A stretch of DNA of 56,092 nt from positions 1-56,092 of IMG/VR virus record IMGVR_UViG_3300037264_000469, one strand, 5' to 3'. The notes beneath the pieces are model-generated. The model was not told the origin of the DNA. It was given only the letters and a program-made list of their open reading frames with translations, and made no database searches. This DNA is from a virus. Of the stretch, positions 30,361 through 51,700 are shown in pieces (positions within the stretch are counted from its first letter, which is position 1; the number at the start of each line of letters is the position of its first letter). Both the position numbers and the translations under genes were made by a program.

Positions 30361-33300
30361 TTAAGCAGTTGGAAATGTCGCGCCAGTTGGTAATATATTA
30401 AAATCCAATATAATAAATTCGGCAGACTTAGTTGGTTTCAACCAAATTTGTCCATAAAGGATATTTCTATCTACCAAATCGGGTGTATTATTGCTTTCAT
30501 CCATTACAACTTGGAATGCGTACAAACCACTTCTTTGTTGTATACTTTCTAAATATGGGTTGACAATTGACAAGAATCTGAGACGAGTTGCCGCAGTATT
30601 TTGTTCAAACACCAAATATCTTGAGGTAGTTGCGAAGAATTTTTTAATTTCAATAAGCAATCTTCGAACATTAATACGATCTAATGCCGAGGATGCTACT
30701 TGAAGTGTTTTCTGTCCCCACACCGAAATTCCTTGGCCCGGAAATGCCGCAATAGGATTAACTCTACCTTCATAAAGGGTATCTCTTTCGGAGTGAGTTG
30801 TTCTATCAGTTACTTGAACTGCTTGAGGAATACCACCACGGTTCAATCCTGCCGCAGCCCACCATTCGCCCGCTACTTTATCGTTAGAAGCGTATACAGC
30901 AGGTATAACAACAGATGGAGGAACCACTTCTATTTTGTTGGTATATATATTTTTAATTTTAATCCAAGGATAGTATGCTCCTGCATAATTTGTGTCAAAT
31001 TCTCCTGCGAGGCTAACAACTTCATCAATTTGTCCGGCTTGTGGAGTTCCATCATCAAGATACAAATCAGGAATGTAAAAACAATCTCCACGAGTTTCGC
31101 ACATGTCGAGAACACGATTTACAACATATGGATGTAATGAATAAATAATGCCGGGAGTTACAATAAGATTAATATCAAATTCGTCGGCATTTCCTAAAGC
31201 ATTAACACACTGAACGTAAGCTATTGAACCGGCGGTTGTACTTGTCGCGCAGTTTAAACCTTGGGTATTTCCCGGAACAATATTTCCACCTATAGCAATA
31301 GGAATTGCTGGAGATTGACCATCAAATCCTCCTTGGAATCCAAATACAAACTTACGCATCTTTACATGAGTCGTTTCATTTATAGGATCGAAAATAGATG
31401 GAATTATATTACTTCCTTCTAGGAACGAACCCGTCCCAACTCCATTTGCTGTAATATCTTGGTCTAATGCAAATGATACATTTTGTCCTGCGCTTATTGA
31501 TGGGTACGATACAAAACTTGGCAAAGGAGCAAAGTATTGTCTGTTATCTATTGATACTCCCGTGCCAGCAGAAGATGTAGGATACAATCCTGAAAGTTCA
31601 GCATCTGCACCAGTAGGAGCATCATCAAATACTACACCGGATGGATATTTACCAGGAAATTCTCCGTATACAGATGCTTTACTATATTTCATTGGAGCAC
31701 ACCAATATCCAGCAGAACTATTGACTGGAACGGCGTATTCTTGGAATCCATATGGGACCGCAGTATTAGGAATTGGATTCGGAGACATTTCAATTCTAAT
31801 ATACCTGCTTAAATTATCAAAATCCCCTACTTCAATAATTTTACCATCATATCTTATGTAAGAGTATTTAGATCCGATTCTACGAGCAATAAAATTAGCA
31901 GAATCTGGATTCAATGAAAGATTTTGGAATGATTCCAAAACCGAAGGCTTTCTGTCTGTATCGCTATAATTTCTTACAGTAAGAGTAAATGATCCCCAAT
32001 CACTTCCTACAACTTGTCCAGCCAATTTTACATTGGATATTTCAATTTTAAATGAAGTATTGGTAATTGTTCCGTCTGATAAAGTCCATACTTGGAATAA
32101 TGAATAACGAGTTGGAGATCCACCATTCCATGGAGAAATTTCTTGAGAAACAACCCAAGGAGTATATGCATTAGTTAATGCAAAAGCAGAGTCTCCTCCA
32201 GATGGATTTAACGAATATTCATCGGTAAAATTCATTGGTTCTCCAACAAAATCTGCCCCTGCTGGAACTGGTGCTCCAACAAATTGCCAATGAAGTGGAT
32301 CTGCTACAACGCTTTCCAAACTATTCTCAAAGAACTTATAAAGATATGCAGCTTCTAATTTTGTACCCTGTGCATATTCTGCTGGATCGCCAGCAGTTGC
32401 ATCTGAACCAAATACATTTTTAATATAATTTGTATTTCCTGAATCAAAAGAGAAGTTATATACTCCATAAGAAGAAGATGCACTCGTTTGAGTCAAGGTT
32501 AAATTGTAACTTACGCTTACAGTTCCCGACCCTGATATTTGGGACGCAGTTACCATAGTAGAACCAGAAAATCCCGGTGCTTCTAACGAAGTATTAATCG
32601 GAGCATTTTGTGTGTCAGCTAATACAGCAATTATTTTATATTCCGTATTATCAGACCAACTTCCACTACAAGGATCAAAAGTGGCATCATCCGCATCAAA
32701 TTCTCCAGTAAATGGACCAAAACTTCCGGTTATTACCCCACCAAAATAAAAAATAGGATCAGCACAAGTTCCTAAATCTTGCGTCACCGATCCACTTATA
32801 ATTGTGATATCATCAAATGGATAAACTCCAGCGGACGTAGTAACATTAGTTAACAATCCACTGCCAGACTCAGCCGATAAAACAAATTGCAAAACAGATG
32901 AAGCCGCTGATCCACTGTTAAGAACTGAGCTTGTGACTTTTATTTCGACATTTACTCTTCCGGAAATTTTTCCTAAAGATACTTCTTCATTATTATAGAG
33001 TAAACTACCACTTAAAGAAGATACACTAAATGGTGCTGCTGCACTGGCGGCAAGAGTTGCAAATGTAACGTTCAAGTCACTATTTGTAAAAACTACAGAT
33101 CCAGTAAATGCTGTATAATTATCAACATCGACTGATGATGTAATAGTTTCCCATGCCACAGTTCCATTTGTTACATATGAGGCTTGAGCATCAACAGTTC
33201 CTGCATCTTCTCCGCGCAACCATGTTCCTTTCTTGGCATATATGATATATGGAAATTTTTGATGATATCCGGTTAAAGATCCAACACGACATACAGTAAC

Positions 33301-33564
33301 AAATCCCTTTGCTTTTAAATATTCCATGGCGGTATAGGGACCATAATAGGTTCCATCCGCAACACCAAATTTAGATTCTAAATCAGCGGGAGATTCGCAG
33401 ACTGTTGGTATAAATCCCGGTCCCTTTGGAAAGGGGGCTACAACGACTGCTCCGATATCCGCGACACCCTGAGCAATACCGGAAAGATCGTTTTCGCGTG
33501 AAAAAACGCCCGGGCTTACGATTTTGTTATGAGGAGTAAAGTTTCCACCTTCAGTAATTGGCAT
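30361..33564 (-). CDS. Tail sheath protein (T4 gp18-like)
   Basis: This is the contractile sheath subunit. The N-terminus (VSPGVFSRENDLSGIAQGVA, about 16-35) and the following GAVVVAPFPKGPGFIPTVCE and LESKFG are typical of phage sheath proteins. So is the C-terminal block with ALDRINVRRLLIEIKKFFAT (near 955-975), then RFLSIVNPYLESIQQRSGLY and a closing DFNILPTGATF strand. At 1067 residues it is much longer than T4 gp18 (659). The extra length lies in the middle (about 130-640) as Ser/Gly/Val-rich beta sequence, probably surface-exposed insertion domains on the outside of the sheath. AAGGA sits about 8 bases before the ATG, and a TATAAATA is 89-96 bases upstream on the coding strand. A strong terminator follows, so this is probably a monocistronic, highly expressed late gene. 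Confidence 0.9.
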   Translation of the reverse strand: MPITEGGNFTPHNKIVSPGVFSRENDLSGIAQGVADIGAVVVAPFPKGPGFIPTVCESPADLESKFGVADGTYYGPYTAMEYLKAKGFVTVCRVGSLTGYHQKFPYIIYAKKGTWLRGEDAGTVDAQASYVTNGTVAWETITSSVDVDNYTAFTGSVVFTNSDLNVTFATLAASAAAPFSVSSLSGSLLYNNEEVSLGKISGRVNVEIKVTSSVLNSGSAASSVLQFVLSAESGSGLLTNVTTSAGVYPFDDITIISGSVTQDLGTCADPIFYFGGVITGSFGPFTGEFDADDATFDPCSGSWSDNTEYKIIAVLADTQNAPINTSLEAPGFSGSTMVTASQISGSGTVSVSYNLTLTQTSASSSYGVYNFSFDSGNTNYIKNVFGSDATAGDPAEYAQGTKLEAAYLYKFFENSLESVVADPLHWQFVGAPVPAGADFVGEPMNFTDEYSLNPSGGDSAFALTNAYTPWVVSQEISPWNGGSPTRYSLFQVWTLSDGTITNTSFKIEISNVKLAGQVVGSDWGSFTLTVRNYSDTDRKPSVLESFQNLSLNPDSANFIARRIGSKYSYIRYDGKIIEVGDFDNLSRYIRIEMSPNPIPNTAVPYGFQEYAVPVNSSAGYWCAPMKYSKASVYGEFPGKYPSGVVFDDAPTGADAELSGLYPTSSAGTGVSIDNRQYFAPLPSFVSYPSISAGQNVSFALDQDITANGVGTGSFLEGSNIIPSIFDPINETTHVKMRKFVFGFQGGFDGQSPAIPIAIGGNIVPGNTQGLNCATSTTAGSIAYVQCVNALGNADEFDINLIVTPGIIYSLHPYVVNRVLDMCETRGDCFYIPDLYLDDGTPQAGQIDEVVSLAGEFDTNYAGAYYPWIKIKNIYTNKIEVVPPSVVIPAVYASNDKVAGEWWAAAGLNRGGIPQAVQVTDRTTHSERDTLYEGRVNPIAAFPGQGISVWGQKTLQVASSALDRINVRRLLIEIKKFFATTSRYLVFEQNTAATRLRFLSIVNPYLESIQQRSGLYAFQVVMDESNNTPDLVDRNILYGQIWLKPTKSAEFIILDFNILPTGATFPTA

Positions 33565-33675: not shown

Positions 33676-33963
33676 TTATGTCTTTGAAACCGTAGGGGTA
33701 AATGTACCATCATTCATGTTAAGGTTTCCCTCTCCATATTTTTTAATAATAGTGTCTATAAGGTCTTGTTCAAGTTTTTGAAGATTCTGCCAACCTTCTT
33801 TCAACCCTTTTTCTTTTGCAACAAATTCCGATACCATACGGTCTAATTCCATCTTTTCAATTTGCAGTTCCCCAAATTTGAAAACCATTGCTTGAAATTT
33901 ACTTTGTAACATTTTAACTTCAGCAAGTTCTGCTTCGGAAATTTTAATATTTTCATTTGTCAT
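33676..33963 (-). CDS. Small coiled-coil protein, 95 aa
   Basis: I take the ATG at 33963 (MTNENIKISEAELAEVKMLQ) over the earlier in-frame ATG at 33999, which would leave only 5 bases before the divergent glycosyltransferase start. Residues 8-75 form a continuous amphipathic helix (SKFQAMVFKFGELQIEKMEL, VAKEKGLKEGWQNLQKLEQD). A short tail (KKYGEGNLNMNDGTFTP) follows that could be a beta hairpin. The length and helical-hairpin character recall prefoldin-like or fibre-assembly chaperone proteins. It lies between the sheath gene and the glycosyltransferase/fibre cluster. The function is unknown. Confidence 0.6.
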   Translation of the reverse strand: MTNENIKISEAELAEVKMLQSKFQAMVFKFGELQIEKMELDRMVSEFVAKEKGLKEGWQNLQKLEQDLIDTIIKKYGEGNLNMNDGTFTPTVSKT

Positions 33964-34004
33964 ATACCTATATATATAGGAAAGAAATTCTTTAAACATT
34001 GGTT

Positions 34005-34682
34005 ATGAAGGTCATTTTTTGTATACCCGGAAATAACTTTTCTGGAAACTTTTTAAAATCTTGGACTTCTCTATTATTAAACTGTTTTAATAATAATATT
34101 GAGGTATTATTGTCTCAAAGATATAATCCCAACATTTATTATGTTCGATCTGAATGTCTTGGAGCAAACTTATTACGCGGAAAAAAACAAGTTCCATTTG
34201 ACAATAAAATAAATTATGATTATTTAATGTGGATTGATTCCGATCAAATATTTGCTCCAGAACATTTTTTCTCTTTATTATCCGATAATAAGGATATTGT
34301 AGGTGGATTATATCTAATGGAAGGAAGAACTCATTTTGCCTCAGTAAAAACGTGGGATGAGGATTATTTTAGAAAAAACGGAACATTTCAATATTTAACA
34401 CCAAAAGACCTTTCTAGTAATGAAGAATTAATAGAAGTTGTTTACAGTGGATTTGGATTCCTTTTAATAAAACGAGGCGTATTTGAGAGTTTAGAATATC
34501 CGTGGTTTGAACCTCAAACTATAAACTTTGGAAATGATATTGAAGATTTTGCGTCTGATGATATATCCTTTTGTATTAAAGCAAAAAAAGCAGGATATCA
34601 AATATTTGTAGATCCTAAAGTTATAATAGGACACGAAAAATCCGAAATTTTATACATTCCAAAACTTAACTTGGAAGCTTAA
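34005..34682 (+). CDS. GT-A glycosyltransferase (family 2-like)
   Basis: The N-terminus, MKVIFCIPGNNFSGNFLKSW, leads into a GT-A fold. The metal-binding DXD motif is in YLMWIDSDQIF (about 74-84), followed by DIVGGLYLMEG and a C-terminal acceptor region with ASDDISFCIKAKKAGYQIFV (Asp-Asp before SFC), then DPKVIIGHEK. This pattern is typical of small phage and bacterial glycosyltransferases that use an NDP-sugar. I use the ATG at 34005; a TTG six bases earlier is also in frame. It is on the opposite strand from the other glycosyltransferases, and its stop codon overlaps the convergent stop of the 34679-36982 gene. It may be regulated separately. The acceptor is unknown: DNA, LPS or virion protein. 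Confidence 0.8.
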   Translation: MKVIFCIPGNNFSGNFLKSWTSLLLNCFNNNIEVLLSQRYNPNIYYVRSECLGANLLRGKKQVPFDNKINYDYLMWIDSDQIFAPEHFFSLLSDNKDIVGGLYLMEGRTHFASVKTWDEDYFRKNGTFQYLTPKDLSSNEELIEVVYSGFGFLLIKRGVFESLEYPWFEPQTINFGNDIEDFASDDISFCIKAKKAGYQIFVDPKVIIGHEKSEILYIPKLNLEA

Positions 34683-36982
34683 ATAATAAAAGAATTAACT
34701 AAAAGTGGTTGAATTGATTTTATAACTTTCTCCACGGTAATAGATTTGGAACAAAGATGGATATTTGGAGTTCCTTTATATTTAGGACAATATTCCCAAT
34801 CTTTATCAAAAACTTGTCCTTTCCAATTAAAACATCCTTGGCAAATATCTTCGGGAGGATTAATATTAATTTTATTAGAAAACTCACACCACGGATAACT
34901 AAATCCAGATATCATGGCAACTTTTTTATTCATTCCCCAAGCAATCCATGCAACCCCGGATGGTAACCCTATAAAAAATTCACAATGGAACAAATATTTC
35001 TGAACATCTGCTACAGATTCTACATTTGCATTAATAACATTAGATATATTTCTATCCGTTTTGCTAATATTAACAACCCTATATCCTCTCTCATTCAAAT
35101 ATAAAGCCAAGTTCTCCCACCCCTCGGGGTAATGCCAATATTTACATAAAGATGTAGATTCTGTAGCAATGCAAATATATTTTTCTACTATTGGTCTTTC
35201 TACATTTGGAATATGTAATAGAGGTCGAATTTCTTTATAATCTAACCCCAAAATATCAGAAGCTACTTTTTGTAAGGGCATTTCATTCCAAGGATGTGGC
35301 GAGGTAGATCTATTTTCGGTATTAAAACATCCAATTGAATATGACGCAAATATGTTATTGATTCCACTACCAGGAGATATAAATTCTAAGTCTGGATATC
35401 TTTCTTTAAATAAATCATTATGAAAAGTAGATACAATTACATGACAGTTGTGTTTTTTTCTAAATTCTTCTACATAAGGTATCCACGCAATATTATCTCC
35501 AAGAGCAGCACTATCAAATCCAATAAAAACTCTTTGCCCAGTCAAATTTATTTTATCGTCAAAAATACATTGATTATTAGTTATTATTCTTATTTTCCAA
35601 TCCAAATAATACTTGGTAAATGGTCGCGTCCATTGGCTTGGCTTTAAATTAGCCGCGTAAGTAATAAAATTATTTTTTTGATCTATGAATTCTACTCTAT
35701 AATCTTGATTTGGATCTCCTCCTTTAAGTTCTATATAAGGGCCATCAACATAATGGCGAATTATTTGAAGTGGAGGGTGTTTTTTAGCGAAAACTCTTTC
35801 TTTTGCTGGAGTTATTTCATTATAAAAAGATATCAATTTATTTTTAAAAAAAACATTTTCGTCTTTTTTCTTTAAAATCTCTTCATTATAAATAATTTCG
35901 TTTATTTTTCTTGCCACTGGGGGGGTTTTAACACAGTGAAACATAAAAACATCATCTTTATTTCTCGGAATATACGATTGAGAAGGATATCCTAAACTAA
36001 AATTATTTAAGTCGTTTAAATGTTCTTTTTGAGAATTGAAATAATAAAAAAACTTTACATCCTTTTCGGTGTGTATATTAATGGACGCAAATGTAAAGAG
36101 TGCTTTTGTTTTTCTTTTCCACAACAAACAATTCAATAATAATTCATCATGAAGATATTCTTCTAAACGTATTTTTGCTATTTCGTTAGATGTGCATATT
36201 TCGTGCCATTCTTCCAGTAGATCTTTATGAGTTATATTGTAATGAATTACATTAGTCATTCCATGAGGCATAAATTGATTTTCCGGAGTTCCTAATTTTA
36301 AATATTCTCTTACCTTTGGTCCGGGAATATATAAAGTTCCATTCATTATAATATAATCCCACGCACTTTTTTGTAAAATTAACATATTTTCTTGCGGAGG
36401 AGAATAATTTACAAACTTTTCTATATTACTTCTAACCTGAATATCGGAATCCATAAATAAACCATTCGCAATTCCATCTTTTAAAGATTGTAATAATATT
36501 TTTGGTTTAGTTAAGAGAACCGTATCATGGTCGGGGCATTTCTCGTTATTATCAAAATATACATTTTCTAAATTATGACTTTTGATTTTAGAATGATAAT
36601 TTATAGTGTAATGATAAATTGGTGTATTAGTATATTTTCTTATTCCATCTATTAAACAAGATGTTATTTCTTCAAATTTGTCATTTGATATTAAAACTAT
36701 AGACGTAGAACTTTTATTTTTATTAATTTGATCTTTATATATACATGTACTATTTTGAAAAATATCTATATAAAATTCTTCGGTATTCCAAGTATTAAAA
36801 AAATTATTATATATAAAAGAAAAAGTTTTTTCTTCTGTCGGTAAAAAATCACAAACCTGAAAAATTACTTCATGAAAATATATATTTTTTACAGATACAA
36901 AACATTCTTTTAAAAATTTATTTGATAAATTTTTAACGCTTATTCTATTTTCAAGAAGTTTAATATCGAAGATTTTTTGCAT
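34679..36982 (-). CDS. Fusion: GT-A-like domain + autotransporter-type heptosyltransferase (TibC/BAHT-like)
   Basis: The N-terminal part (about 90-350) looks like a GT-A glycosyltransferase, with SIVLISNDKFEEITSCLIDG and a DXD-like LFMDSDIQV near 188-196. Residues 485-767 resemble bacterial autotransporter O-heptosyltransferases: VFIGFDSAALGDNIAWIPYV, EEFRKKHNCHVIVSTFHNDL, a WNEMPLQKVASDILGLDY block, and CKYWHYPEGWENLALYLNER, followed by FFIGLPSGVAWIAWG. The diagnostic iron-finger cysteines are present as CQGC (714, 717), EYC (732) and HLC (744). Known TibC-family enzymes add heptose to serine side chains of surface proteins. In this operon the obvious Ser/Thr-rich targets are the two fibres encoded upstream. 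The gene starts 23 bases inside the preceding gene and ends against the convergent 34005-34682 gene. GGGAG precedes the ATG. Confidence 0.78.
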   Translation of the reverse strand: MQKIFDIKLLENRISVKNLSNKFLKECFVSVKNIYFHEVIFQVCDFLPTEEKTFSFIYNNFFNTWNTEEFYIDIFQNSTCIYKDQINKNKSSTSIVLISNDKFEEITSCLIDGIRKYTNTPIYHYTINYHSKIKSHNLENVYFDNNEKCPDHDTVLLTKPKILLQSLKDGIANGLFMDSDIQVRSNIEKFVNYSPPQENMLILQKSAWDYIIMNGTLYIPGPKVREYLKLGTPENQFMPHGMTNVIHYNITHKDLLEEWHEICTSNEIAKIRLEEYLHDELLLNCLLWKRKTKALFTFASINIHTEKDVKFFYYFNSQKEHLNDLNNFSLGYPSQSYIPRNKDDVFMFHCVKTPPVARKINEIIYNEEILKKKDENVFFKNKLISFYNEITPAKERVFAKKHPPLQIIRHYVDGPYIELKGGDPNQDYRVEFIDQKNNFITYAANLKPSQWTRPFTKYYLDWKIRIITNNQCIFDDKINLTGQRVFIGFDSAALGDNIAWIPYVEEFRKKHNCHVIVSTFHNDLFKERYPDLEFISPGSGINNIFASYSIGCFNTENRSTSPHPWNEMPLQKVASDILGLDYKEIRPLLHIPNVERPIVEKYICIATESTSLCKYWHYPEGWENLALYLNERGYRVVNISKTDRNISNVINANVESVADVQKYLFHCEFFIGLPSGVAWIAWGMNKKVAMISGFSYPWCEFSNKININPPEDICQGCFNWKGQVFDKDWEYCPKYKGTPNIHLCSKSITVEKVIKSIQPLLVNSFII

Positions 36983-38543
36983 AAATTACTCCCATGTTAC
37001 TATCTAACATATTAACGTTAGTATCATATCCATAGTATGGCAACCATGTATAATCAAAATCATTTCTGGCTAATTTTTCTATTATTGATAAAACTTTATA
37101 ATTGGTATTATCATGAAATTCTATTATCATTTGTTTAATTCTACAAAGATTTTTATCAGAAATACTATCGAAAAACATATACTCCGCGCCCTCAATATCT
37201 ATTTTCATAAAATCCAGTATATTTTCTTTTATTTCATTTTCAAATAAAACATCTGGTGTTATAGTGGGAACCTTTATTGTATTTATTGTTTTTTGAGAAT
37301 CAATTATTGGAAATACGCTAGATACAACTGAAACATCTTCACATTGATAAAAATCTATTGAAGTCATACTGTCGTATACAGCATTAGGAATAATTTTTAC
37401 ATTTTTATAATGCCCTAGTATTTCGATCAACATACTTGTATTTCTGGGGTTGGCTTCCACCATATAAATTTTACAATTTGGATCTACTACGAAATTAATG
37501 CTTGCCATCCCAATATTTGTTCCAATATCCAAATAATTTTTTATATTTTTTAATTTATCATTTAAATTTACATCTTCATAAATTTTAAAATTAATTAAGG
37601 CATTGAAATCTTGTAGTTTTCTATGTTCTTTATATTTATTTCGCTTAAATTTATTACACAGTGGATGTTTTAAAGAAAAATCTTTAACATTGAAATTTTT
37701 TATTATTTTAGTTTTGGAATTTTTAGGAATAAATTCTACATAAAACCCATTTTGTAATTCGGAATTTATTGGTGGAAGTATCCACAAAGTTAATTTTGGG
37801 GGAATGACTCTATTTTTAAGGAAATAAACCTCGAGATCTGTGAAATAATCAAATATATAAATATCCCCATCAAACATAGCCTCAGACTCATTAGAAATAT
37901 AATATCTATTTTCTAATGCATTATATGAAACTTGAAGTCCAGAATAATCATATCCTACTTTATCTATTTTATTGTCACCAAAAAATTCTGCTTTATTTGG
38001 ATACGTAAATATTTTATGTTCTAGTTTTTTCTCTTTAATTGTTAAAACCCAGCACAATTCCAAAAGATTGCACTTGGCAAACATTTCTTCGATGGTCTTG
38101 TAAACCGGAAAGGTATCCAATAAGAAATTTACATTACAGAAAAAACTATTGGTTGCCAAAAAATATTCTCCCCACTGACAAGAAACAAAATCATATTTAT
38201 AATCTTTGATCCAGTCTTTAAAATGATGGATATCTACAATTTCACTATCATATGTTATTTTATATGCCCATTCTATTCCCACAAACCTTAAGTGTTCAAA
38301 GGACTGTCGTATTAGAACATTTTCTGCCACCCCATGAGAATATTTTCTATCATCAATTATATTTGACCTTTCGTATATAACATAATCACATTTTTCTTGA
38401 ATATCTTCTGGTATGATAGAATGAGAAGATAACACTAAATAATAATTTTCGGTAGAAATTTTATTTATCATATCACGAAGACATTCTAATCCTTCGTCTG
38501 AACTTTGATAATAAGTTATAACCCATCCTATTTTTTTATTCAT
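36960..38543 (-). CDS. Fusion: GT-A-like domain + FkbM-type methyltransferase
   Basis: Residues 1-200 resemble a GT-A fold with an N-terminal IGWVITYYQSSDEGLECLRD strand-helix and EWAYKITYDSEIVD (a possible DXE acid motif, about 92-105). The middle (about 220-330) is unassigned. Residues 336-527 are an FkbM-type SAM methyltransferase: NYLDIGTNIGMAS (336-348, SAM loop), YMVEANPRN, then FMKIDIEGAEYMF (445-457), the signature of this family. FkbM enzymes O-methylate sugars and polyketides, so this part probably caps a sugar hydroxyl on a glycan built by the neighbouring transferases. Its ATG overlaps the stop codon of the preceding gene by four bases (ATGA), so translation is coupled. Confidence 0.78.
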   Translation of the reverse strand: MNKKIGWVITYYQSSDEGLECLRDMINKISTENYYLVLSSHSIIPEDIQEKCDYVIYERSNIIDDRKYSHGVAENVLIRQSFEHLRFVGIEWAYKITYDSEIVDIHHFKDWIKDYKYDFVSCQWGEYFLATNSFFCNVNFLLDTFPVYKTIEEMFAKCNLLELCWVLTIKEKKLEHKIFTYPNKAEFFGDNKIDKVGYDYSGLQVSYNALENRYYISNESEAMFDGDIYIFDYFTDLEVYFLKNRVIPPKLTLWILPPINSELQNGFYVEFIPKNSKTKIIKNFNVKDFSLKHPLCNKFKRNKYKEHRKLQDFNALINFKIYEDVNLNDKLKNIKNYLDIGTNIGMASINFVVDPNCKIYMVEANPRNTSMLIEILGHYKNVKIIPNAVYDSMTSIDFYQCEDVSVVSSVFPIIDSQKTINTIKVPTITPDVLFENEIKENILDFMKIDIEGAEYMFFDSISDKNLCRIKQMIIEFHDNTNYKVLSIIEKLARNDFDYTWLPYYGYDTNVNMLDSNMGVIYAKNLRY

Positions 38544-40174
38544 ACTCTTTCCCCACTATAATCAATTTTATCCAAAAGAGAATATCCAGAAAATTGCATA
38601 GTCAAAATCTCATCAAACACGCCGGTCTTATATTTGTTCAGATTGTTCATGAATAGTAAATCAGTTACATTCCATGGTGCAGTAGCATACATATTTTTAA
38701 ATAATTCATACGACCTTCGCGGGATCAAATAAGCATGAGCAGCAACAAAGTGACTTACAATCATATAATCGTTTTTTTTCTCTAAAATATTTTCGTTGTG
38801 ATGATGAACAAATGAAAACATTATTAAATCTTTATTATTATTTAAAATTTTACATGCTTTATTTATGTAATTAACAAATTGATCTGTGGTTATTCTTATA
38901 CCACAATCACACTCAAACATCATTATAAAATCATATTTATCTTCGGCAATAGCCTCAAGTAATCCATTCTTATGTGCTAAATAACATCCATAATGTCCCG
39001 GTGTTAATTTTCCACCGGGTTCCATAGAAATAAGGTCTGGGTTAATGCAATTTTCTCTGGGTGGAAGTTCCTTATATGGTTTATTAAAACACATTTTATA
39101 ATCTATTCCATAGTTTTTCAATTTTGATAAAGTTTGAATAGATTTCATTTCTCTTTTTGCAAATACATCCGTTAAAAGATGCCGAGCAGTTATTTTATAA
39201 TCTGCGGAAGATAAATCAATTTTAACATCATATGAAGAAGTTTCATATAATAAATATGATTTTATCAGTTTGATATTTTTATCAAAATCATCAGTTAGAA
39301 ATTGTATATTTTTGAATTTAGATAGTCCATCGCCATAAGTGCTTAAATTATATGCTAAAATAGGAATATTATAACTATTTGCCTCTACCAAGGTAATCGG
39401 TCTATTTTCAAATTTAGAAGTAAAAAGGAATAAATCACCTGCTATTAAGAATTTATAAACATCGTCTCTTTCATTCCACAATACACAATTATTTGGCATG
39501 TCATCTAATAGTGGTTTCCAATAAGCCTCAAAATTCAAAGCTCTATTTCCTATAAAATGAAATATTATTTTTTTATCTTTTAATTTTTTGGCATACTCAA
39601 AGATTTCTTTTTGATTTTTTCCAGGTGTAAAAAGACCTACGTTTATAACATGAAAATACGACGGATCTAAACCTAACTCATCTAAATATCTTCGTTTTAA
39701 ATCGGCAGTAGAATGTGGAAATTCTAATACATCAAAATCATTGGTTGTTTTTATGTATTGTTCCATGTTACATCCAGAAACAAACATGGTTTTATCCGCC
39801 ATAACCCATTTATCATTTAAATTGAACATAGTTCCATGAGTAGTTTCACAAATTTTGTAGGAACTATTTCCATACAATCTTTTTAAAATATCATCGGTAA
39901 TAAACGTTTCTGGATATTCTTCAAAATGAACTATTTCTGGATTTATTTTTTCTATTATTGAAAATATTTCTTCTTTATTAGAAGAAAGAGTAATAAGTTT
40001 TTCTCGTATTAATTCTCTTAATTTGTTTTTTTGAATAACATATGCATCGGCTATATTATCCCATTCTACGATATAAACATCAAACTCATTTACAAGACAT
40101 TGTACCTTTTTCAAAAGATATTGAGGCAATCCGCCGGTGGATAAATGAGGTGTAATAAATAAAATTTTCTTCAT
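38540..40174 (-). CDS. Fusion: GT4-like (GT-B) + GT25-like glycosyltransferase
   Basis: The N-terminal domain (about 1-320) starts MKKILFITPHLSTGGLPQYL, the classic GT-B/GT4 opening, and has VGLFTPGKNQKEIFEYAKKL and the LVEANSYNIPILAYN region of the nucleotide-sugar site. Residues about 371-544 resemble family GT25: KLTPGHYGCYLAHKNGLLEA (390-409), then MMFECDCG (ECD at 421-423, a DXD-like acid site) and SHFVAAHAYLIPRRS (474-488). GT25 includes LPS sugar transferases and the animal procollagen galactosyltransferases; the substrate here is not known. It is in the middle of the glycosyltransferase operon, 49 bases after the GT4 gene. Having two enzymes in one chain suggests two consecutive sugar additions. 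Confidence 0.75.
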   Translation of the reverse strand: MKKILFITPHLSTGGLPQYLLKKVQCLVNEFDVYIVEWDNIADAYVIQKNKLRELIREKLITLSSNKEEIFSIIEKINPEIVHFEEYPETFITDDILKRLYGNSSYKICETTHGTMFNLNDKWVMADKTMFVSGCNMEQYIKTTNDFDVLEFPHSTADLKRRYLDELGLDPSYFHVINVGLFTPGKNQKEIFEYAKKLKDKKIIFHFIGNRALNFEAYWKPLLDDMPNNCVLWNERDDVYKFLIAGDLFLFTSKFENRPITLVEANSYNIPILAYNLSTYGDGLSKFKNIQFLTDDFDKNIKLIKSYLLYETSSYDVKIDLSSADYKITARHLLTDVFAKREMKSIQTLSKLKNYGIDYKMCFNKPYKELPPRENCINPDLISMEPGGKLTPGHYGCYLAHKNGLLEAIAEDKYDFIMMFECDCGIRITTDQFVNYINKACKILNNNKDLIMFSFVHHHNENILEKKNDYMIVSHFVAAHAYLIPRRSYELFKNMYATAPWNVTDLLFMNNLNKYKTGVFDEILTMQFSGYSLLDKIDYSGERV

Positions 40175-40223: not shown

Positions 40224-41408
40224 TTATAATTTTTGACTTTTTATAATCCTTAAAAGGTTGTCTACAGTATTTTCTTCCGTAAGATGTGAAACTTTCTTAT
40301 TAGATAGCAACCCCTTTTCAATAATTTTGCTTTTATTATTATAACAATATCTAAAATTTTCTACAACACTTTTTTCATTAACTTTAGCCCAAAATCCTTC
40401 GGTAGGACCATACATTCCTAATGCTAATTCTTCTTCATAATCTATTGGAATTCCTACGTGTTCATCAAAAAATTCAGTTATTCCGCCATAATTTGCGGCC
40501 ATAACTGGTCTACCACACATCATTGCTTCGTGTTGCATAAGACCCCAACCTTCAGAATAAGACAAAGAGACGAAAACATCAAGACTTGCATAATAATCTG
40601 CCATTTTTTCTTCGGTATAATCATCAAATATTATTTTAATTCTGGAATCTGCATATCTCGGAAAGGATGAATACTGTTTGATATCAATTTTCACTCTTAA
40701 TTCTACATCTTTAATTTTTGGATTAAATGCTTTGCAAAAACATTCTATTGTATATTCCAATCTTTTTCTTGTTTGGTTTTGTGCTTCGCCACATCCAAAT
40801 ACCATTTTGGATTCAGTATGGGGAGGTCTATAAAAAAACGTATTTGGATTGATTCCAAGAGGTACAACATATATTGGAGAAGTTGTTCCGCTCTGTAAAA
40901 AATTAATACGATTCCAATTGGATGGAACTAATATTCTATTGTTGGGGTGGTTAAATCTGTTTACAACCATTGCGTCTAATTGAGAAGATTCCCACATCGT
41001 ATATATAAATTTTTTTCTTTTTAAATTGGAATTTAATAGGTGATTTTTTAATTGAAAATCCAGTGATAACGGGCAAACAACAAATTCATCCGTAGATAAC
41101 AATAAATCTCTTCCCACTGATCGAATTAAAGATGCATATTTTCCAACAACATTTGTATCAGTTGGAAGAATATATAAATCAACCCCCCTTAATAAAAAAT
41201 TTCTTATAAATACATCTATTATTTTACCATATCCAGAAATTGTATTAAGTGGAGATTTAAATAATAATATCACATCTTCTTCACTCGGTCGTTGTAACAT
41301 TTGTTGTGGCACGGGTGTACCCAAATTATTTTTACATAATTTATTTTTATGGGCAACAAACGATGAACTCAAAGCATTTGTAATATCAGATATAACATAT
41401 TCTATCAT
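40224..41408 (-). CDS. Glycosyltransferase family 4-like
   Basis: A GT-B fold glycosyltransferase. The conserved parts are the linker phrase TSPIYVVPLGINPNTFFYRP and the C-terminal EX7E-type region SLSYSEGWGLMQHEAMMCGR with PVMAANYGGITEF, which binds the nucleotide sugar. The N-terminal 40 residues (EYVISDITNALSSSFVAHKN) are unlike the family and may be an adaptor. It is the first glycosyltransferase gene in the operon after the fibres and the small 41412-41714 gene, from which it is separated by three bases. The likely role is extension of a glycan, with the acceptor inferred to be a virion protein or a cell-surface glycan. Length 394 is normal. Confidence 0.85.
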   Translation of the reverse strand: MIEYVISDITNALSSSFVAHKNKLCKNNLGTPVPQQMLQRPSEEDVILLFKSPLNTISGYGKIIDVFIRNFLLRGVDLYILPTDTNVVGKYASLIRSVGRDLLLSTDEFVVCPLSLDFQLKNHLLNSNLKRKKFIYTMWESSQLDAMVVNRFNHPNNRILVPSNWNRINFLQSGTTSPIYVVPLGINPNTFFYRPPHTESKMVFGCGEAQNQTRKRLEYTIECFCKAFNPKIKDVELRVKIDIKQYSSFPRYADSRIKIIFDDYTEEKMADYYASLDVFVSLSYSEGWGLMQHEAMMCGRPVMAANYGGITEFFDEHVGIPIDYEEELALGMYGPTEGFWAKVNEKSVVENFRYCYNNKSKIIEKGLLSNKKVSHLTEENTVDNLLRIIKSQKL

Positions 41409-41721: not shown

Positions 41722-44700
41722 TTAATTAAATAGTTGAACGTATCGCGTTCCGACTCCACTAATAATTATTGCTAACCATCCATAATGAGTAGTATGTGCT
41801 CCGGTTCCATCAGTGGAAGTGTTGGAACTAGCAACCGTAATAGATCCAGCCATATTTATAGATCCGTTAATATATAGTTTGTATCCACCCGGAGAGGCAC
41901 TAATTCCTACACCAGATCCATCGTCTTGAAGAATTGCACTACTGGCAATTGAAGTTCCATCAAATCTTAATACATATCCACTAGAAAACGAAGTATTATT
42001 GGTTCCGCCGATTGATATCGCAAATGGCGTAGCATATGTTGCACCACTAGTTCCCGATGTTCCTTTCGTTCCACTAGTACCCGATGTTCCATTATTACCT
42101 GCTGGTCCTTGTCCACCATCTATACCAGATGTTCCTGAGGTTCCCGATGTTCCTTTCGTTCCACTTGTGCCTGAAGATCCACTTATTCCAGATGTTCCTG
42201 AGGTTCCCGATGTTCCTTTCGTCCCACTTGTTCCAGATGTACCACTTACTCCTGATATACCCGATGTTCCGCTTGTTCCACTATATGCAAATGCGAAAGA
42301 AGCAGTTAAAGCGTGGGATGCAGAAATAGAATTAATAGCTAAACTTGCAGTTTCATTTATTGCTGGCACTTTTATAGTTGAAGAAGCCCATACTGGTCCG
42401 GTAAATATATCTGCTTCTGTTTTATGTACTATACTATCAAAACTAGCAGTCGTATATCCAATACAAACATCGCGCAATTTTATTGTAGGAACATCCCACT
42501 GAGTAGATACCCCCGCCTGATTTTGAATATAAATAATGGGACGCCCATCACTACCAGAACCAAAACTTGCTGTATAAAGTGAAGTATGAGGATTTCCTAA
42601 TACAAATGCATTTGTATTAAACCAACGATTTGGCGTTGCTGAAGTACTACCATTTCTTTGCCCAACTAAATAAAATGAAAGGGCATTAATAGTTGAAGTA
42701 TAATTATAAACATCAACCCATCCGGCAAATGTAAATGGATCTGTTAAATTTGGAAGTTGAATTCTTAAATATCCTGTTCCAATATATAGTCTACTAATAA
42801 ATCCTCTTTCAGGAATACTAATAAATGACCCGGTTGGAATAAATCTACTTGACACCAAATCCTCTCCCAATCCATGCCCACCAACTCCAACATGAGAATT
42901 TAAATTTAAAGAAGAAGATAGTTGTAAACTGTGAGATGCCGCATTATCTATTGTAATTATAGATCCACTATTAAATATAAATGTACTATTATCAATTTGG
43001 CGTAAAGAAGAACTTACTAATGTAGTTCCATTCCATTTTGGAATGTAATCATCAACCGGATGTCCTACATAAGATGCTGTTTGGGCAAATAAAGATGTAA
43101 TAGCAATACTTGCTGTATCTGTATTTCTTCCATCTAATACAGTCATGCCGAATGAAGTGGAAACGAAGTAATTAGTACTTGGAAATATATCTATCTCCAA
43201 ATTATTATTCAAGAATTCGTAGCTTTGTGATGTGTATCCAAAACAAACATCACGCATTCGGATCATGCTGAAGTTCCATGTCGTACTTGCTCCTCCATTA
43301 CCACCGATGTAGATACCCGGTCGTCCATCGCTACCAGTCCCAAAAGATGCTGTCAATCTATAGGATGTGTTGGTAGTATGGAATTTACTAGCGATATGTA
43401 ATGCACTAACATCTTGCCAGATGGTGTTGCCAGCTACAAGGTTAGAAGGTGTGCCGCTAACATATATTGAAGATCCTCCCCGATTGGAATTAAGAGAATA
43501 TAAATCAATCCAAGCAGAGAAGATACATGCTCCACCCTGTAAAGGAGGCAATTGAATTCTTAGTGCTCCGATGGGGGATTCCCTATCGGATAAGAATCCT
43601 TTTTTCGGAATAGTAATAAACGATCCAGTCCCGAATAATCCGCGTATGCTTCCACTTTCTTTTGTTCGTGCCCCACCACCGATGCTTACATTATAATCTA
43701 AATTCAATGAAGCGGATAATAATAATGCAGTACTTGATGCGCTATCTATGGTGATTATTGAAGCACTATTAAATATAAATGTACTATCACCAACTTGGCG
43801 TAAGGAAGAAGTTACTAATGTAGATCCATTCCATCTTGAAATATAATCATCAACTGGATTTCCTACATAGGATGCTGTTAATGTCCACGATGCAGTTGTC
43901 GCATATGAAGATGTTCCAATGAAAGACCCGTGAAAAGAACCGGTTCCAAACGCGGATGCTGAAACAGGACCCCCAATATGTAATTTTGCTCTCGGAATTA
44001 ATGTTCCTATACCAACACTAGAATTAGTATCTATTGCTAAATATGTTGAACCAGATGTTACTAATTGACCAAATCCCAGATTGCTTCCGGAAACATAACC
44101 CGTATTTAGATTATTTGTATATTGAATTGTTGGACTTGCATCTAATGCTACAATTTCACATTTAGCTATATCTATTTCAAAATAGGTATTAATTGGAGTA
44201 TTTTCTATAATATAAAAAAAAGCAGTAATCGCAAATGACCCCACATTTCCTATAACTTGTAAAAATTCATAATAAGACCATTCTTTTGTAAGAAATTTTG
44301 ATGTAAGCCAATATCCAGATGTTCCAGTTCCTACCGCATTACTAGCAAAATTCCAAGATTTATCCCCTAAAGAACCAGTATTCATTCTAGCCCACATTTT
44401 ATATAACAACCTATCACCGGGCTTATATTGAAATCCACTGATGGAACCCGTTAAAGATGCACCAATGCCAGCATAAAATCCACCAAATCCAGGAGTAGGA
44501 GTTACATTATATGTTCCTGTTCCATCATATTTAACTTTAAGTATTCTGCCACTAGAATTTGGTACACTACCACTAATTGAACTAGTATCCACTGTAGAAG
44601 ATATAGTTACTTTACCACTCGCAGAATTATCATATACTGCCCAACCTGTAATTCCATCTAAAAATTCGGTGTTTCTGTTTGTTATTCTTCCGGATAATGA

Positions 44701-45696
44701 ATTCAATAAACTTATAGATCCAGAATTTCTTAATTGAGTACCGTTTGGAATACGAATTCTTACATCACCCGCATCAATATTATTTATATTGATTTCTAAA
44801 CTTGCTGTTCCTGTTGTACGATTAACCAATGATAAAAGTGCTGATGGTGTAGTTGTATTTATACCAACTCTGTTTCCGTCATCATAAACTAAACTTGCTG
44901 AATTTAATGTATTATTATTCCATCTAGGAACGTAATTATTAGTTCCATTTCCAATAAAAGATGCGGTTAATGAATAACTAGCAGATAATGACAGGCTAGA
45001 AGAATCTACAGATTTAGCACTTATTCTTTCAATAGGAATTGATGAAGTAATGTAATAATCTAGCCACTGATAAAAATCAAAGTCAATGCCATTATTTAAA
45101 GCATCAAAACTTGCTGTAGTATAACCAAAGGTGAAATCGCGAAATTTAACGGTTGGTGTGTCCCAATTTGAATTTACTCCACTAGAATTACCAATGTAAA
45201 TTGTTGGTCGACCAAAACTACTAGTTCCAAAACTTGCTGTTAACTTATGCTCATTGTTTTTATTTGCTATAGAAATTGCGGAAAGAATATTCCAATTTCT
45301 ATTACTTACTGTCTCAGTTACCACTCCACTTAAATATATTGTGGAAGCCTTATAAGAATCGTTGAGAGTTAAAAAATCCAACCATCCACTAAAATAATAT
45401 CCTGATGGTATATTAGGAAGTTGAATTCTTAAAAATCCAGACATTGACGCACCATTTCCAGCTAAAAAACTATTTTTCGGAATTGTTATGTATGATCCGC
45501 GTCCTATTATTGGACTGGCACTTGCACTTTCTGGATTTTTAGCTGCTCCGCCAATTCCAATATCTCTATACAACGATAATGAAGCCGACAGATTAAGCGA
45601 CGATGATATAGCATTTTCAATTGTTATTGCCGAATTATCTATAAAGGTCGCATCACCCCTTACTATTAGACCATTTTTTACTACAAATTCATTCAT
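41722..45696 (-). CDS. Tail fibre / appendage protein with collagen-like C-terminal part, 1324 aa
   Basis: The N-terminus ([20 protein letters not shown]) is typical of modular phage fibres. The body alternates repeated [10 protein letters not shown]-type beta segments with stalk modules of the form [10 protein letters not shown], and has three related modules of about 280 residues. The phrases [40 protein letters not shown] and [20 protein letters not shown] mark each. Near the C-terminus, about 90 residues of Gly-X-Y repeat ([13 protein letters not shown] type, with one GPAGNNG) precede a final domain ending in [19 protein letters not shown], probably the tip. It follows the giant fibre by 24 bases on the same strand and leads straight into the small gene and the glycosyltransferases. 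GAAAG lies upstream of the ATG. Confidence 0.8.
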
Positions 45697-45720: not shown

Positions 45721-48700
45721 TTACATTATTTTTATTGATGCTTTAACTGCCCATCCAGCAGTGTTACTTGACCTAGTAACTAACCCCACATCCCCCGGAC
45801 CTACCGTATTAAGTTTAATTGACATAGATAAAGCATTGGTATTACCAATTTCAGCGGTGGTTACTTCATTGTATTCAATATTATCATCATTCCAATTTGC
45901 TACCATCATACCGGCTCTACTATTAGAACCCGATGCCACGCTGTATTCAAAGTAACCAGATCTATAAGAACCAGTGTTAGTATAAAACATTACAAAATCT
46001 AAGTTAGGTGAAGGTATTATTATACTTGCATAATCAATCTTTATATCACCAAAATTAAAATTATTATTGGTAAAATGACTTGATGATACCGCATAACTCG
46101 AAGATAAAGAACTACTTGCCCACGAGGCCGACACAGCATATATACTTTGAGTAGAATATATTGACACTTTGGATTTTTCACTCCACGAAGATGTTCCATG
46201 AAATGATCCAGTTCCAAAAATAGATGCTGATATTGCCCCTTGAACATGAAATTTTGCTTGTGGACTTGATGTACCAATACCTAAGTTTCCACCTAGGATA
46301 TACTGGTTATCAGAATGTCCTAATGCCACAATTGTATTGCTACCTGAAACAATTATGAACTTACTGGTAGGATAAAATCTAAATTGGTTTGGATTATTGT
46401 AAACATTTATCACCATATTACTGTGGCTTACAAATGGCGTAATGAATGCATAGGTTATTGAACCTAATCCACCATAAGAACCAAATATTGAAAATGACTG
46501 TGATAATGGATTTGCTATTCCTACTTGACCTACTGAATAATATCTTGCCCATCCTCCATCACCTAGCGTTGCAATTTGAACGCCATAAGGTGCATGAGAA
46601 GAAGATAGAACTAGCCCACCGTATGTAATATGTGGTGCGGTTGTAGAACCAAAATCTCTAATTGCACCAATACCAAGTTGATTATCGGTTACCCATCTTG
46701 CAGTATAATTCGTACTACCACCCAAGACTTCATTAGATATATCAGAATAACTAGATGTTACTGCGTAGCTTCCTGTAAATGTATAACTTGCCGTTATAGT
46801 ATATGACGAACTTCTAGCATATGATGCGGTTATGGCGTATGAAGCAGATTCATATGGTAAATAAGCTTCTATTGGAAGCGTATCACTATTTATTTCTTCA
46901 ACCCGTGGTCCCCAAAAATAAACTACACTGCTGGTTGTTGTATTATAATATTCAGATACTCTCTGTGTTTGAACATTACCTGTGCCTATTTTATATTCTA
47001 CACCAGATGTTCTGTCAAATGAACCGGATTGAGTATATACTCCGCTTTTTAATAAGGATGATCCAGTTGAATCCGTGGCCCATAAATAACCTACAAATAA
47101 TAACCACTGATCTTTCGGGAGCGACGATGCATTTCTTTGTAAGAAGAACGGATTGCCATTAACCGTATTATTTAAATTTAATGTATTAGATGTAGAAGCA
47201 CCTAAAAAGATAGTTCCGTTATTTGGTGGTGTATTACTTAAAATTTTAACCCAAACAGAATATCTATGAGATTTACTAGGAATAGCAGGTAAAGTAGCAT
47301 CCCATCCGCCATTAGCAGCGAAATCTCCTGCTGATGTTACTTTCCAAATTAATGATCGTTGTCCATATGGATCAACATCATAACTTCTTGTGTTTTCATT
47401 ATTAGCACCAACTTGGATAAACACTGTTTCGACCATTGGTCCACTTCCACTATACCACTGAGTATCTGGAACCAAATTTCTGGCAACATATCCCGTTTTA
47501 TCAACAAGATATTGAGAAGAAGAAAGCGTAGTGGTTACTGTAACTTTATCACTATTACCATAAATTTCCGACGTTGAACTTAATTTATTATTGTTGACCC
47601 ATTTAATATAATAATCATTAGTTCCTTCTCCAACATAAGATGCAGTTAATGCATAAGATGCAGATATACAACAAAGCGCACAACTTGCAAAACTGGAAGT
47701 TTTAGAATATGATGAACTTAATGTATATGATGAACTTAATGTATATGATGAACTTAATGTATATGATGCTGATAAGGCATATGAGGCCGATAAGGCATAT
47801 GAGGCCGATAAGGCATTTAACGCATAAGAAGCAGTTCTGTTTGTATGAACTTCACCGCTAACATCAACAGTTAGTAAATCAATGTCAGATAATTGTTGTA
47901 TTAATCCTGTTAACCTTAGTGGATCAGAAGAGGCAGATATATGTAATTTGTTAGTGGGTGTTGTTGTATTTATTCCTACATTTCCATCTATACCTTTAAT
48001 AGTCATCCATGTATTGTAATCAGTCAAGCTGGATGAAATAAAATCAAATTTTAGATTAAAATCATTGCTTGCTGCTGAAATTTGATCAGTAGATACCCGC
48101 ATTCTTTCGAACGATCCATATTTAAATGCTAATCTTGCATCATTTCCAGTAAATCCAGAAGCTAGATATGGAGATTCTATAATCATTCCTACGGAACCGC
48201 TTTGAGAAAATATCCTCATTCCACTTCCACTTACATCTAAACTATATGAAGGAGCAACTTGTCCTGTGCTTATTCCTATAAATCCTCCGTTTGGATTTAA
48301 TATCAAAGGAAATCTTGAAGATAGATCTATCTGGCTAGTAAATTGAAGCCATGCCCCCAATCCACTATGCATAGATCCGATGTCTAAAACTCCATTGGAA
48401 TCGGTATGTCTTAGTCTCAATATCGATCCGGTTTGGATTTTTCCTGATGCCGCAGGCCACGCACTTGGAAGTGTAGAAACTACATCTAAAGATGAAGATG
48501 GATTAGTTTGATTTACTCCAATAAAATTATTAGTTGGGTATTCCGTCATTATGGAATCGCCAATAGTAGTTGGAGAAGTAAATTTTACTATTCTATTTGT
48601 GGTTCCACTTATTGCTACTGATGTTCCACTTGTACCAGACGAACCGCTTACTCCTGATGTTCCGCTTGTACCAGATGTGCCTTTAGTTCCACTTGTACCA

Positions 48701-51700
48701 GACGAACCACTTACTCCTGATGTTCCGCTTGTACCAGATGTGCCTTTAGTTCCACTTGTACCTGAAGAACCACTCACTCCTGATGTTCCAGATGTACCTT
48801 CTGTTCCACTTGTTCCCGATGTTCCACTTGTTCCTGAAGAACCACTCACTCCAGATGTACCACTTGTACCAGATGTGCCTTTAGTTCCACTAGTTCCCGA
48901 AGAACCACTCACTCCTGATGTTCCAGATGTACCTGAAGTACCATCCATTCCGGATGTACCACTTGTACCAGATGTGCCTTTAGTTCCACTAGTTCCCGAA
49001 GAACCACTCACTCCTGATGTTCCAGATGTACCTGAAGTACCATCCATTCCGGATGTACCCCCTGTACCACTTGTACCAGATGTGCCTTTAGTTCCACTAG
49101 TTCCCGAAGAACCACTCACTCCTGATGTTCCAGATGTACCTTCCGTTCCACTTGTTCCCGATGTACCTTTTGTTCCTGATGTACCCGAAGTACCTCTTGT
49201 TCCACTTGTACCCGACGAACCACTTATTCCTGATGTTCCACTCGTTCCACTTGTACCTTCTGTTCCACTGGTGCCTGATGAACCACTTACTCCACTTGTT
49301 CCTGATGTTCCTTTTGTTCCACTTGTACCCGACGAACCACTTATTCCTGATGTTCCACTAGTTCCCGATGTACCTTCTGTTCCACTAGTTCCTGATGTAC
49401 CTTCTGTTCCACTGGTGCCTGATGATCCACTTACTCCACTTGTTCCTGATGTTCCTCTTGTTCCACTTGTACCGCTTGTTCCAGTCGTTCCTGATGTTCC
49501 TTTTGTCCCACTTGTACCTGATGTACCACTTGGAGTTATAGCATACGATGCTGTTATTGCATGACTCGATGTTAATGCATATGATGCAGATGTTGATCCT
49601 GATGCATATGATGCCGATACAACAAATGTTAGAGATTGAGTTACATCGAAGAATTTAAAATAACTTCCACTTAAAGTATACGAGGCTGATAATGCTTCCT
49701 TTGCAAATAATGTATAGGATGCCGTTTTACTTGAGTGAACAACCCCACTAACATCAATAGTTAATAAATCAATATCTGATGATTCTATTACATTTTGTAA
49801 TCGTAATGGATTAGCGGCAGAAGATACATGTAATCTGTTGGTTGGAAGTATCGTGCCAATTCCTACATCTACTCCATCTTCATAAATTAAACTCGTAGGA
49901 GTTAAGGTATTGTTTTGCCATTTTGGAATGTAATTATCAACACCTTCTCCGATATATGATGCACTCAATGCATATGAAGAACTTAGTGAAAACGAAGAAC
50001 TTAGTGAAAATGAAGCGGTTAATGAAAATGAAGAACTTAATGAAAATGATGTGGTTATTGGATAAGTAGATCCGGATACAATAAATGCACTTGTTCCTGA
50101 TGTACCTCTTGTCCCACTTGTTCCTGATGTTCCTCTTGTTCCACTAGTTCCTGAAGAACCACTTACTCCAGACGTTCCAGAAGTACCAGCAGTTCCGGAT
50201 GTTCCACTTGTTCCTGAAGTTCCGTTTGTTCCACTTGTTCCTGAAGAACCACTCACTCCAGATGTTCCAGATGTGCCTTTAGTTCCACTTGTTCCAGATG
50301 AACCACTTATTCCTGATGTTCCACTAGTTCCCGATGTACCTTCTGTTCCACTGGTGCCTGATGATCCACTTACTCCACTTGTTCCTGATGTTCCTCTTGT
50401 TCCACTAGTTCCTGAAGAACCACTTACTCCAGACGTTCCAGAAGTACCAGCAGTTCCGTATGTTCCACTTGTCCCAGAAGTACCTTTTGTTCCACTAGTT
50501 CCTGAAGAACCACTTACTCCAGACGTTCCAGAAGTACCAGCAGTTCCGGATGTTCCACTTGTTCCTGATGATCCACTTATGCCAGATGTACCTGAAGTAC
50601 CAGCTGTTCCCGAAGTTCCTGTTGTACCGCTAGTTCCCGATGATCCACTCACTCCTGATGTTCCCGAAGTACCAGCAGTTCCTTTTGTTCCGCTCGTTCC
50701 AGATGAACCACTTACTCCAGATGTACCGGATGTACCAGCAGTTCCTGATGTTCCTTTTGTTCCGCTCGTTCCGCTTGGAGTTATAGCATATGAAGCACTT
50801 ATTGAATATGATGCCGTTTTATTTGTATGAACAACTCCATTGACATCAACAGTTAATAAATTAATATCGTTTAGTTCTCTTAACCCAGCCAGTTTCAGTG
50901 GATCTTGCGATGAAGACACATATAATTTATGTAATGATTCGGTTGATCCAATTGATAAATTTGACCTGATATAAGATGGACTTTCGTTGATAGAATATAT
51001 TGCCCATGGATTATCTACTGTTCCCGGCTCAAACTTATTTGTATCAATAAAAATACCATAACTATTTTCTATATATGATGCACTCTGACAGAATGGAGTT
51101 ATGTAAACTCCATAAGATCGTGAGATACTACCAGTAATCCATTCATCTTCTGAACTTAATCCAAATTGAACTCTAATTCCATATAATCCCTCAAGCCTTC
51201 CTTTATGATCAGTTCCTAGTGTAGATTGAACATTTAATGCAATATAATGTCCACTATTAGTGATAAAATTATTAACATATGTATTACCTAAATTGTTTTC
51301 ATATGACGACCAATAATAAGTTCCATCTATAGTAGCTCTGAAAGCCGGAATCGTTCTAATACTAGAAACATCTCGATCAAATACAAGACCCTGAACATCC
51401 AAAATTGCATCTTCTACATCAAACGAATTTATTCCAACAAACTGACCATGATTGCTTATGGCAGAAACTTGAGTCAATTTATTATTAAGCCAGTAAGGTA
51501 CAAAATAATCTGATCCTTCTCCAATATAAGATGCGGTTAATGCGTAAGATGCAGATAGAGCATTCAATGCCCAAGATGATGTAATTGGATATAATGATCC
51601 AGTTGTGAAATTAGCACTTATTCCACTTGTGCCAGATGAACCAGCCGTACCAGATGTACCTTTTGTTCCACTAGTTCCTGACGTACCTGTTGTTCCACTC

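Follow-up and report, generated by a model that had tools for sequence, protein, structure and literature searches.

The closest described enzymes are the O-heptosyltransferases TibC and AAH (BAHTs; TIGR04414; PDB 4rap and 4rb4), which put sugars on bacterial adhesins, have a beta-barrel and a GT-B fold, and whose genes are paired with that of an autotransporter containing strand-loop-strand repeats (TIGR04415). The iron ligands of TibC are Cys339, Cys342, Cys358 and Cys370 (PMC4358343). WaaC and WaaF (GT9) are more remote GT-B relatives, and the known ones have neither the barrel nor the iron finger. Virus-encoded glycosylation of collagen-like proteins is described in mimivirus, where L230 is a collagen hydroxylase/glucosyltransferase with a GLT25D1-like N-terminal domain and acts on hydroxylysine (PMC9614988). 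Bacterial collagens mostly show Pro at X and Thr at Y of the Gly-X-Y triplet, with hydration networks, and glycosylation is found in few of them, such as BclA (PMC8968730); these collagen-like proteins of Bacillus/Clostridium bear glycans, and no TibC-type enzyme is described there. In the open-access PMC literature that we searched, no paper connected TibC-type enzymes with collagen-like or Gly-Thr-Ser (GTS) proteins.

The DNA analyzed, hereafter the window, is the whole 56,092-nt stretch of the IMG/VR record IMGVR_UViG_3300037264_000469, and its genes encoding a tail sheath and a UvsX-like recombinase identify it as a phage fragment. According to the ORF, TIGR04414, the PDB match to TibC and Foldseek, it contains a fusion glycosyltransferase gene (P0001) at 34679..36982 of the minus strand, with the ATG at 36982 and the stop codon at 34679-34681, which encodes 767 amino acid residues. 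A plus-strand reading of this interval was ruled out, as it contains 40 stops. An earlier note, made from the letters alone, had described this interval as an autotransporter-type heptosyltransferase domain fused to a second glycosyltransferase, and we confirm the observation, on the minus strand. The fusion protein matched no family in PHROGs.

Profile, PDB, alignment and Foldseek results show that residues 405-758 (34709..35770, minus strand) contain a TibC-like beta-barrel and a GT-B catalytic domain. Residues 424-758 match the TibC/Aah O-heptosyltransferase family of NCBIfam, TIGR04414, with 268.9 bits (cut-off 200, E 6e-80), while the same protein reaches 15.1 bits with LPS heptosyltransferase I, TIGR02193 (cut-off 185), and 18.2 bits with PF01075 (cut-off 22). 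TibC (4rap) was the sole good match in a sequence search of the PDB, with an E of 4e-43. The AlphaFold2 model of this half has a pLDDT of about 95 across most of its length, and its 21 best Foldseek matches in the PDB are all TibC chains, with TM scores by target of 0.82-0.87 and most at 2.1-2.5 A; the next matches are a Veillonella GT9 enzyme and WaaF/WaaC, with TM scores by target of only 0.49-0.58. The strands of residues 406-477 (pLDDT about 89-98) are Foldseek-aligned to the N-terminal barrel of TibC, which the known WaaC and WaaF lack. The likeness of the C-terminal half to TibC is well above chance level, and its assignment to the TibC/BAHT family in the earlier note, which had proposed both the profile search and the structure comparison, is borne out by the two of them, the best match not being an LPS heptosyltransferase.

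Residue numbering was mapped onto TibC as in PMC4358343. In the alignment, C714, C717, C732 and C744 coincide with the four iron ligands Cys339, Cys342, Cys358 and Cys370, and these iron-finger cysteines (residues 714-744; 34751..34843, minus strand) are invariant in 85 phage and 18 related cellular sequences. The CxxC...C...C layout claimed from the letters is thus recovered by alignment, and the other two named motifs, the opening GDNIAW (starting at residue 495) and the DILGL block, are both present in the C-terminal half. Neither of the two outcomes that the earlier note had named as refuting it came about, the one on the cysteines being judged by alignment only. The catalytic Asp of TibC, D110, corresponds to D496 and is Asp throughout the sequence set, and the donor-site residues T226, K230 and W305 correspond to T610, K614 and W679. 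Although the catalytic Asp, the Thr/Lys/Trp donor residues and the iron finger are kept, the phage enzyme differs from TibC and AAH by two losses. Arg286 of TibC, which contacts the adenine of the ADP donor, is replaced by Val660, and an Arg is found at this position in 61 of the 62 BAHT-clade sequences versus 16 of the 85 phage sequences. Furthermore, the thumb region (TibC 252-294) has 32 residues, against a length of 42 in TibC and of 41-43 throughout the 62 BAHT-clade sequences, and shows no beta-hairpin thumb such as that of TibC (F265/V266). In TibC the thumb joins dimers into a dodecamer, and the shortened region of the phage enzyme does not have that length.

The N-terminal half, up to about residue 400, showed no Pfam match, and neither annotated phages nor the PDB gave useful matches; a search of viral contigs with it recovered only the contig of one phage locus (L083). 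The L083 protein and one from a Rickettsiaceae bin (L096) are the only two relatives found, and a DxD motif (D178/D180) is invariant across the three sequences. The model of this half has a pLDDT of 48, with GT-A enzymes, glycogenin-like GT8 and GT6, as best matches. Because of the invariant DxD and the GT-A matches of this low-confidence model, residues 93-390 (35813..36706, minus strand) are assigned as a probable GT-A glycosyltransferase domain. The fusion to another glycosyltransferase domain claimed in the earlier note therefore stands, with its GT-A type as probable. Residues 1-92 (36707..36982, minus strand) form a beta-rich domain, with strands in both models, and a weak local similarity in a one-against-one comparison (E 7e-4) hints at a faint resemblance to the TibC-type barrel of residues 406-477. 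The two domains may add their sugars in succession, as the earlier note proposed. The TibC domain is standalone in many phages and in the bacterial gene pairs described below, which suggests that it is able to act by itself and favors it over the GT-A domain as the candidate for the first step.

When viral contigs were scanned with a profile, at least 589 relatives of the enzyme were found, and a one-genome-per-species collection gave 95. In a maximum-likelihood tree, 52 cellular sequences and TibC are separated from a group of 65 phage sequences, the window's enzyme and 18 cellular sequences (SH-aLRT 99). Two cellular sets, one of Methylococcaceae/Polaromonas and the other gammaproteobacterial, are nested among phages in this second group, a topology consistent with at least two phage-to-bacterium transfers, their direction being read from a midpoint root. 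About half of the 66 distinct phage-side sequences are fusions, mostly to GT4-like domains and some to FkbM or other methyltransferases. The window's enzyme belongs, with hundreds of others, to a phage clade that stands apart from the BAHTs. Of the interpretation in the earlier note, the TibC fold, the iron finger and the fusion are supported, while the idea of an adhesin enzyme with a single, isolated counterpart in a phage is not.

The genes around the fusion enzyme are all on the minus strand and follow one another in one direction: a giant fibre, a second fibre-like protein, a 115-aa ORF, two GT4 glycosyltransferases, an FkbM protein, the fusion enzyme, a coiled-coil-like protein and the tail sheath. 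The giant fibre (45721..56092) is open at the contig end and collagen-like according to PF01391 (E 5e-198; 641.7 bits, cut-off 27.2), and is the leading candidate acceptor. Of its 517 Gly-X-Y triplets, 394 have Thr at X and 400 have Ser at Y, and Pro is almost absent, in contrast with the Pro (X) and Thr (Y) that prevail in bacterial collagens (PMC8968730). The second fibre-like protein (41722..45696), with a C-terminal collagen-like GTS stretch of 26 Gly-X-Y triplets (PF01391, E 1e-10), is also a candidate acceptor. All six Ser codons are in use in the GTS repeats of the window, which indicates that the protein sequence and not a DNA repeat is kept. A scan of five large proteins of the window for TIGR04415 strand-loop-strand repeats was negative.

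The first of the two GT4 enzymes has 394 residues (40224..41408; phrog_2170, E 3e-25). The other has 544 residues (38540..40174), shows a GT25-like C-terminal part through its homology with L083, and has a homologue in 67 of the 85 phage TibC-like loci. A 527-aa protein with an FkbM methyltransferase domain (36960..38543; PF05050, E 1e-14) overlaps the start of the fusion gene and has a homologue at the matching position in L083, whose arrangement is that of the window: a GTS-bearing ORF, a GT4/GT25-like protein, an FkbM protein and the fusion enzyme. Between the glycosyltransferase cluster and the tail sheath gene (30361..33564; phrog_23, E 2e-66) lies the gene of the small coiled-coil-like protein (33676..33999), with homologues in 30 of 80 sheath-anchored loci.

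The association with GTS repeats was studied by counting ORFs with at least four GTSG repeats inside the fetched loci. Such an ORF was found in 47 of the 85 phage loci, in 17 of the 18 cellular loci of the same clade and in none of the 62 BAHT-clade loci; Fisher's test between the two cellular groups gives 2e-16, and 2e-15 at <=95% identity (17/18 versus 0/52). In many cellular members the GTS gene adjoins the enzyme gene and is that of a small protein, either exported or a lipoprotein, and no phage genes were evident in the cellular flanks read. The repeat carriers therefore vary in type, being exported proteins, lipoproteins or phage fibres; the GTS proteins tested match Pfam Collagen, with that of L098 slightly under the cut-off. 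In contrast, TIGR04415 repeats were carried by all five of the large genes tested beside BAHT-clade enzymes; this profile was used for the strand-loop-strand search, and a home-made regular expression was dropped as too insensitive. The adhesin-type beta-helix acceptor implied by the earlier reading is therefore unlikely, given the five window proteins free of TIGR04415 and the link of the clade to collagen-like GTS proteins.

The fetched DNA of 38 of the 85 phage loci has no GTSG ORF of at least four repeats, and among the whole contigs of 24 enzyme-bearing phages without a local GTS gene, GTS was found elsewhere in four. Conversely, of the 40 viral contigs that have GTS repeats and a length of at least 40 kb, only 14 also encode the enzyme. 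These counts show that the phage link is real, yet on the fragments seen either partner can do without the other. With the pattern reversed as a control, viral contigs yielded seven stretches, a number too small to set a baseline. In a set of contigs anchored on the closest relatives of the window's tail sheath, a pattern of three GTS units was absent from those that lack the enzyme and present on one of those that have it; within this set, the homologue of the 544-aa glycosyltransferase was confined to the five loci with a full-length enzyme gene. The enzyme and GTS repeats could both simply mark a shared tail region in phages, a confounder that the bacterial pairs answer indirectly.

Genome-wide checks were carried out in two bacterial orders, that of the L092 (Methylobacter) genome, with 251 genomes, and that of the L104 genome, with 109. 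In the first order 15 genomes match the enzyme, nine of them in this clade by profile score, and eight of these nine show a GTS gene 16-157 nt from the enzyme gene; the ninth (L173) has a related Ser-rich exported protein in which poly-Ser replaces the repeat. Seven autotransporter-type enzyme copies in this order have no adjoining GTS gene. A DNA pattern of four G[S/T][S/T]-like triplets, which also admits Cys, Trp and Arg codons so that several background matches are not GTS, was found in 8/9 clade genomes versus 19/242 others (p 5e-8). In the second order, the six genomes with the enzyme all have a GTS/GSS-rich lipoprotein within about 2 kb, and the pattern is present in all six versus one of the other 103 (p 3e-9). 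In both orders combined, an exported (GTS)n or (GSS)n protein lies beside the enzyme in 14 of 15 genomes. As the genomes of one order share ancestry, the p-values overstate independence; counted fairly, the cases amount to two bacterial lineages and the phages, and their repeat carriers differ in type.

Regarding the donor, in one phage subclade 15 loci, 13 of them distinct, show an HldE-like gene 0-4 nt behind the enzyme gene (one overlapping it), followed by a second HldE-like gene. The closest match of the first is HldE domain II (TIGR02199, about 100 bits) and that of the second is domain I (TIGR02198, about 90-120 bits), both scores being under the equivalog cut-offs. These neighbors hint at an ADP-heptose-like donor in that subclade, a hint not directly transferable to the window, as no HldE-like genes were seen near its enzyme. 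ADP-heptose or a close analogue is the likeliest donor, at about even odds; its use by the window's enzyme is plausible, with Val660 at the Arg286 position and with support coming from a different phage subclade. The earlier note had predicted Ser as the first acceptor, but Thr is as plausible.

From the fold, the conserved residues and the gene linkage, we infer a phage protein O-glycosyltransferase of TibC type that sugars Ser/Thr of the collagen-like GTS fibres, a reading to which we give a probability of about 0.62; genomic linkage to GTS repeats is not itself activity. The TibC-like half would act as a protein O-glycosyltransferase with a GT-B fold and an iron finger, from a clade dominated by phages, transferring a sugar, possibly heptose from ADP-heptose, to the Ser/Thr hydroxyls of Gly-Thr-Ser collagen-like proteins. 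In this phage the acceptors would be the two fibre-like proteins whose genes lie a short way upstream with the same orientation, and in bacteria of the same clade the adjoining exported protein or lipoprotein. Lengthening of the glycan would fall to the fused GT-A domain and the neighboring GT4/GT25-like enzymes, and its methylation to the FkbM protein. The sugar may stiffen or hydrate the proline-poor triple helix, or mask or tune host contact.

The main rival proposes that the cluster modifies the host LPS or O-chain against superinfection, and that its proximity to the fibres reflects only a hypervariable host-recognition region. We consider it unlikely, even though it is how glycosyltransferases of comparable phage regions are usually read (pelagimyophages, PMC7029224) and it agrees with the clustering of several glycosyltransferases with an FkbM protein and with the GT9/LPS-type homology, since the best fold match is a protein O-glycosyltransferase and not WaaC, and the bacterial gene of the same clade adjoins that of an exported GTS/GSS-repeat protein, with no LPS cluster in the flanks inspected by eye. 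Quite improbable is a true BAHT that heptosylates, as a dodecamer and with ADP-heptose, the serines of a beta-helical strand-loop-strand adhesin-like protein. The short thumb region, the lost Arg286, the separate clade and the large window proteins scanned, free of TIGR04415, argue against it, despite identical catalytic and iron-finger residues and the HldE-like genes adjoining the enzyme in a related phage subclade. Its TIGR04414 score is over the cut-off, but the 269 bits of the window's protein, within the 224-329 of eight phage-clade proteins, compare with 654 for the BAHT-clade protein tested alongside (L111). Glycosylation of DNA, as with phage hydroxymethylcytosine, or of a small molecule is hardly credible: T-even phages use glycosyltransferases in this way (PMC9614988), but here fold and neighbors give it no support, the locus is in the tail/fibre region and the cellular members pair with exported proteins.

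More broadly, phages and some free-living bacteria may share a dedicated collagen-glycosylation system, in which a TibC-derived iron-finger enzyme O-glycosylates (Gly-Thr-Ser)n proteins. The BAHTs would then be one branch of a wider, mostly phage family of repeat-protein glycosyltransferases in which the type of acceptor goes with the clade, and the GTS pairs of bacteria would perhaps have come from phages at least twice; we judge this view somewhat more probable than its negation. At its cut-off, TIGR04414 would label hundreds of phage proteins as 'autotransporter heptosyltransferase'. The targets of glycosyltransferases in phage tail regions are mostly guessed to be the host surface, and the clade-wide GTS link offers a testable acceptor, with the bacterial pair as a two-gene test model and the Microcystis phage Mel-JY01 as an isolated phage with analysable virions. 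In that phage the enzyme is a fusion of 1,227 aa, and an ORF of 1,016 aa with 80 GTSG repeats is located close by. If the preferred reading of a TibC-type enzyme acting on GTS fibres is true, it would be a second kind of virus-encoded collagen glycosylation besides mimivirus L230 (PMC9614988), here with a TibC-like GT-B enzyme predicted to act on Ser/Thr instead of a GLT25D1-like one acting on hydroxylysine, although a GT25-like part is also found in the partner glycosyltransferase gene of some of these phages. It would also hint at how Pro-poor collagens might gain stability, as a Pro-poor GTS helix might, speculatively, depend on its sugars.

The fusion gene of the window, which encodes a probable GT-A domain and a TibC-like half, has a stop codon overlapping by 4 nt the 3' end of a convergent ORF (33999-34682, plus strand). 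The start of this ORF directly abuts the coiled-coil gene, and its product matches phrog_1574, a family of unknown function, with a second, weak match to a phage glycosyltransferase family. The window also contains two homing-endonuclease-like genes of phrog_3339 (28436-30244, minus strand, and 17936-19438, plus strand), one of which adjoins the tail sheath gene.

Among the other loci carrying TibC-like relatives, L234, L252, L253, L259 and L260 show a tandem second TibC-like ORF immediately 3' of the enzyme gene, which is shorter than the enzyme (about 270-280 aa) and has no counterpart to the profile's N-terminal barrel region. HldE-like genes are located 0-4 nt 3' of the TibC-like gene in L019, L030, L045, L064, L068 and others, as separate ORFs in the order adenylyltransferase half, kinase half.

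An exported protein of L173 (3030-3446, minus strand) is similar to the exported GTS proteins paired with TibC-like genes, with a poly-Ser stretch replacing the GTS repeat. In L263 (and L104), the same TibC-like gene is bracketed by two lipoproteins, one GSS-rich and the other GTS-rich. The enzyme and GTS ORFs of L087, L089 and L100, binned as Thermoplasmatales, Deltaproteobacteria and Nitrosotalea, lie amid phage-like neighbours, and these loci are possibly phage contigs misplaced in those bins.

The sampled phage-clade proteins score 224-329 bits on NCBIfam TIGR04414, all above its equivalog cut-off of 200 bits, and therefore would be named autotransporter heptosyltransferases.
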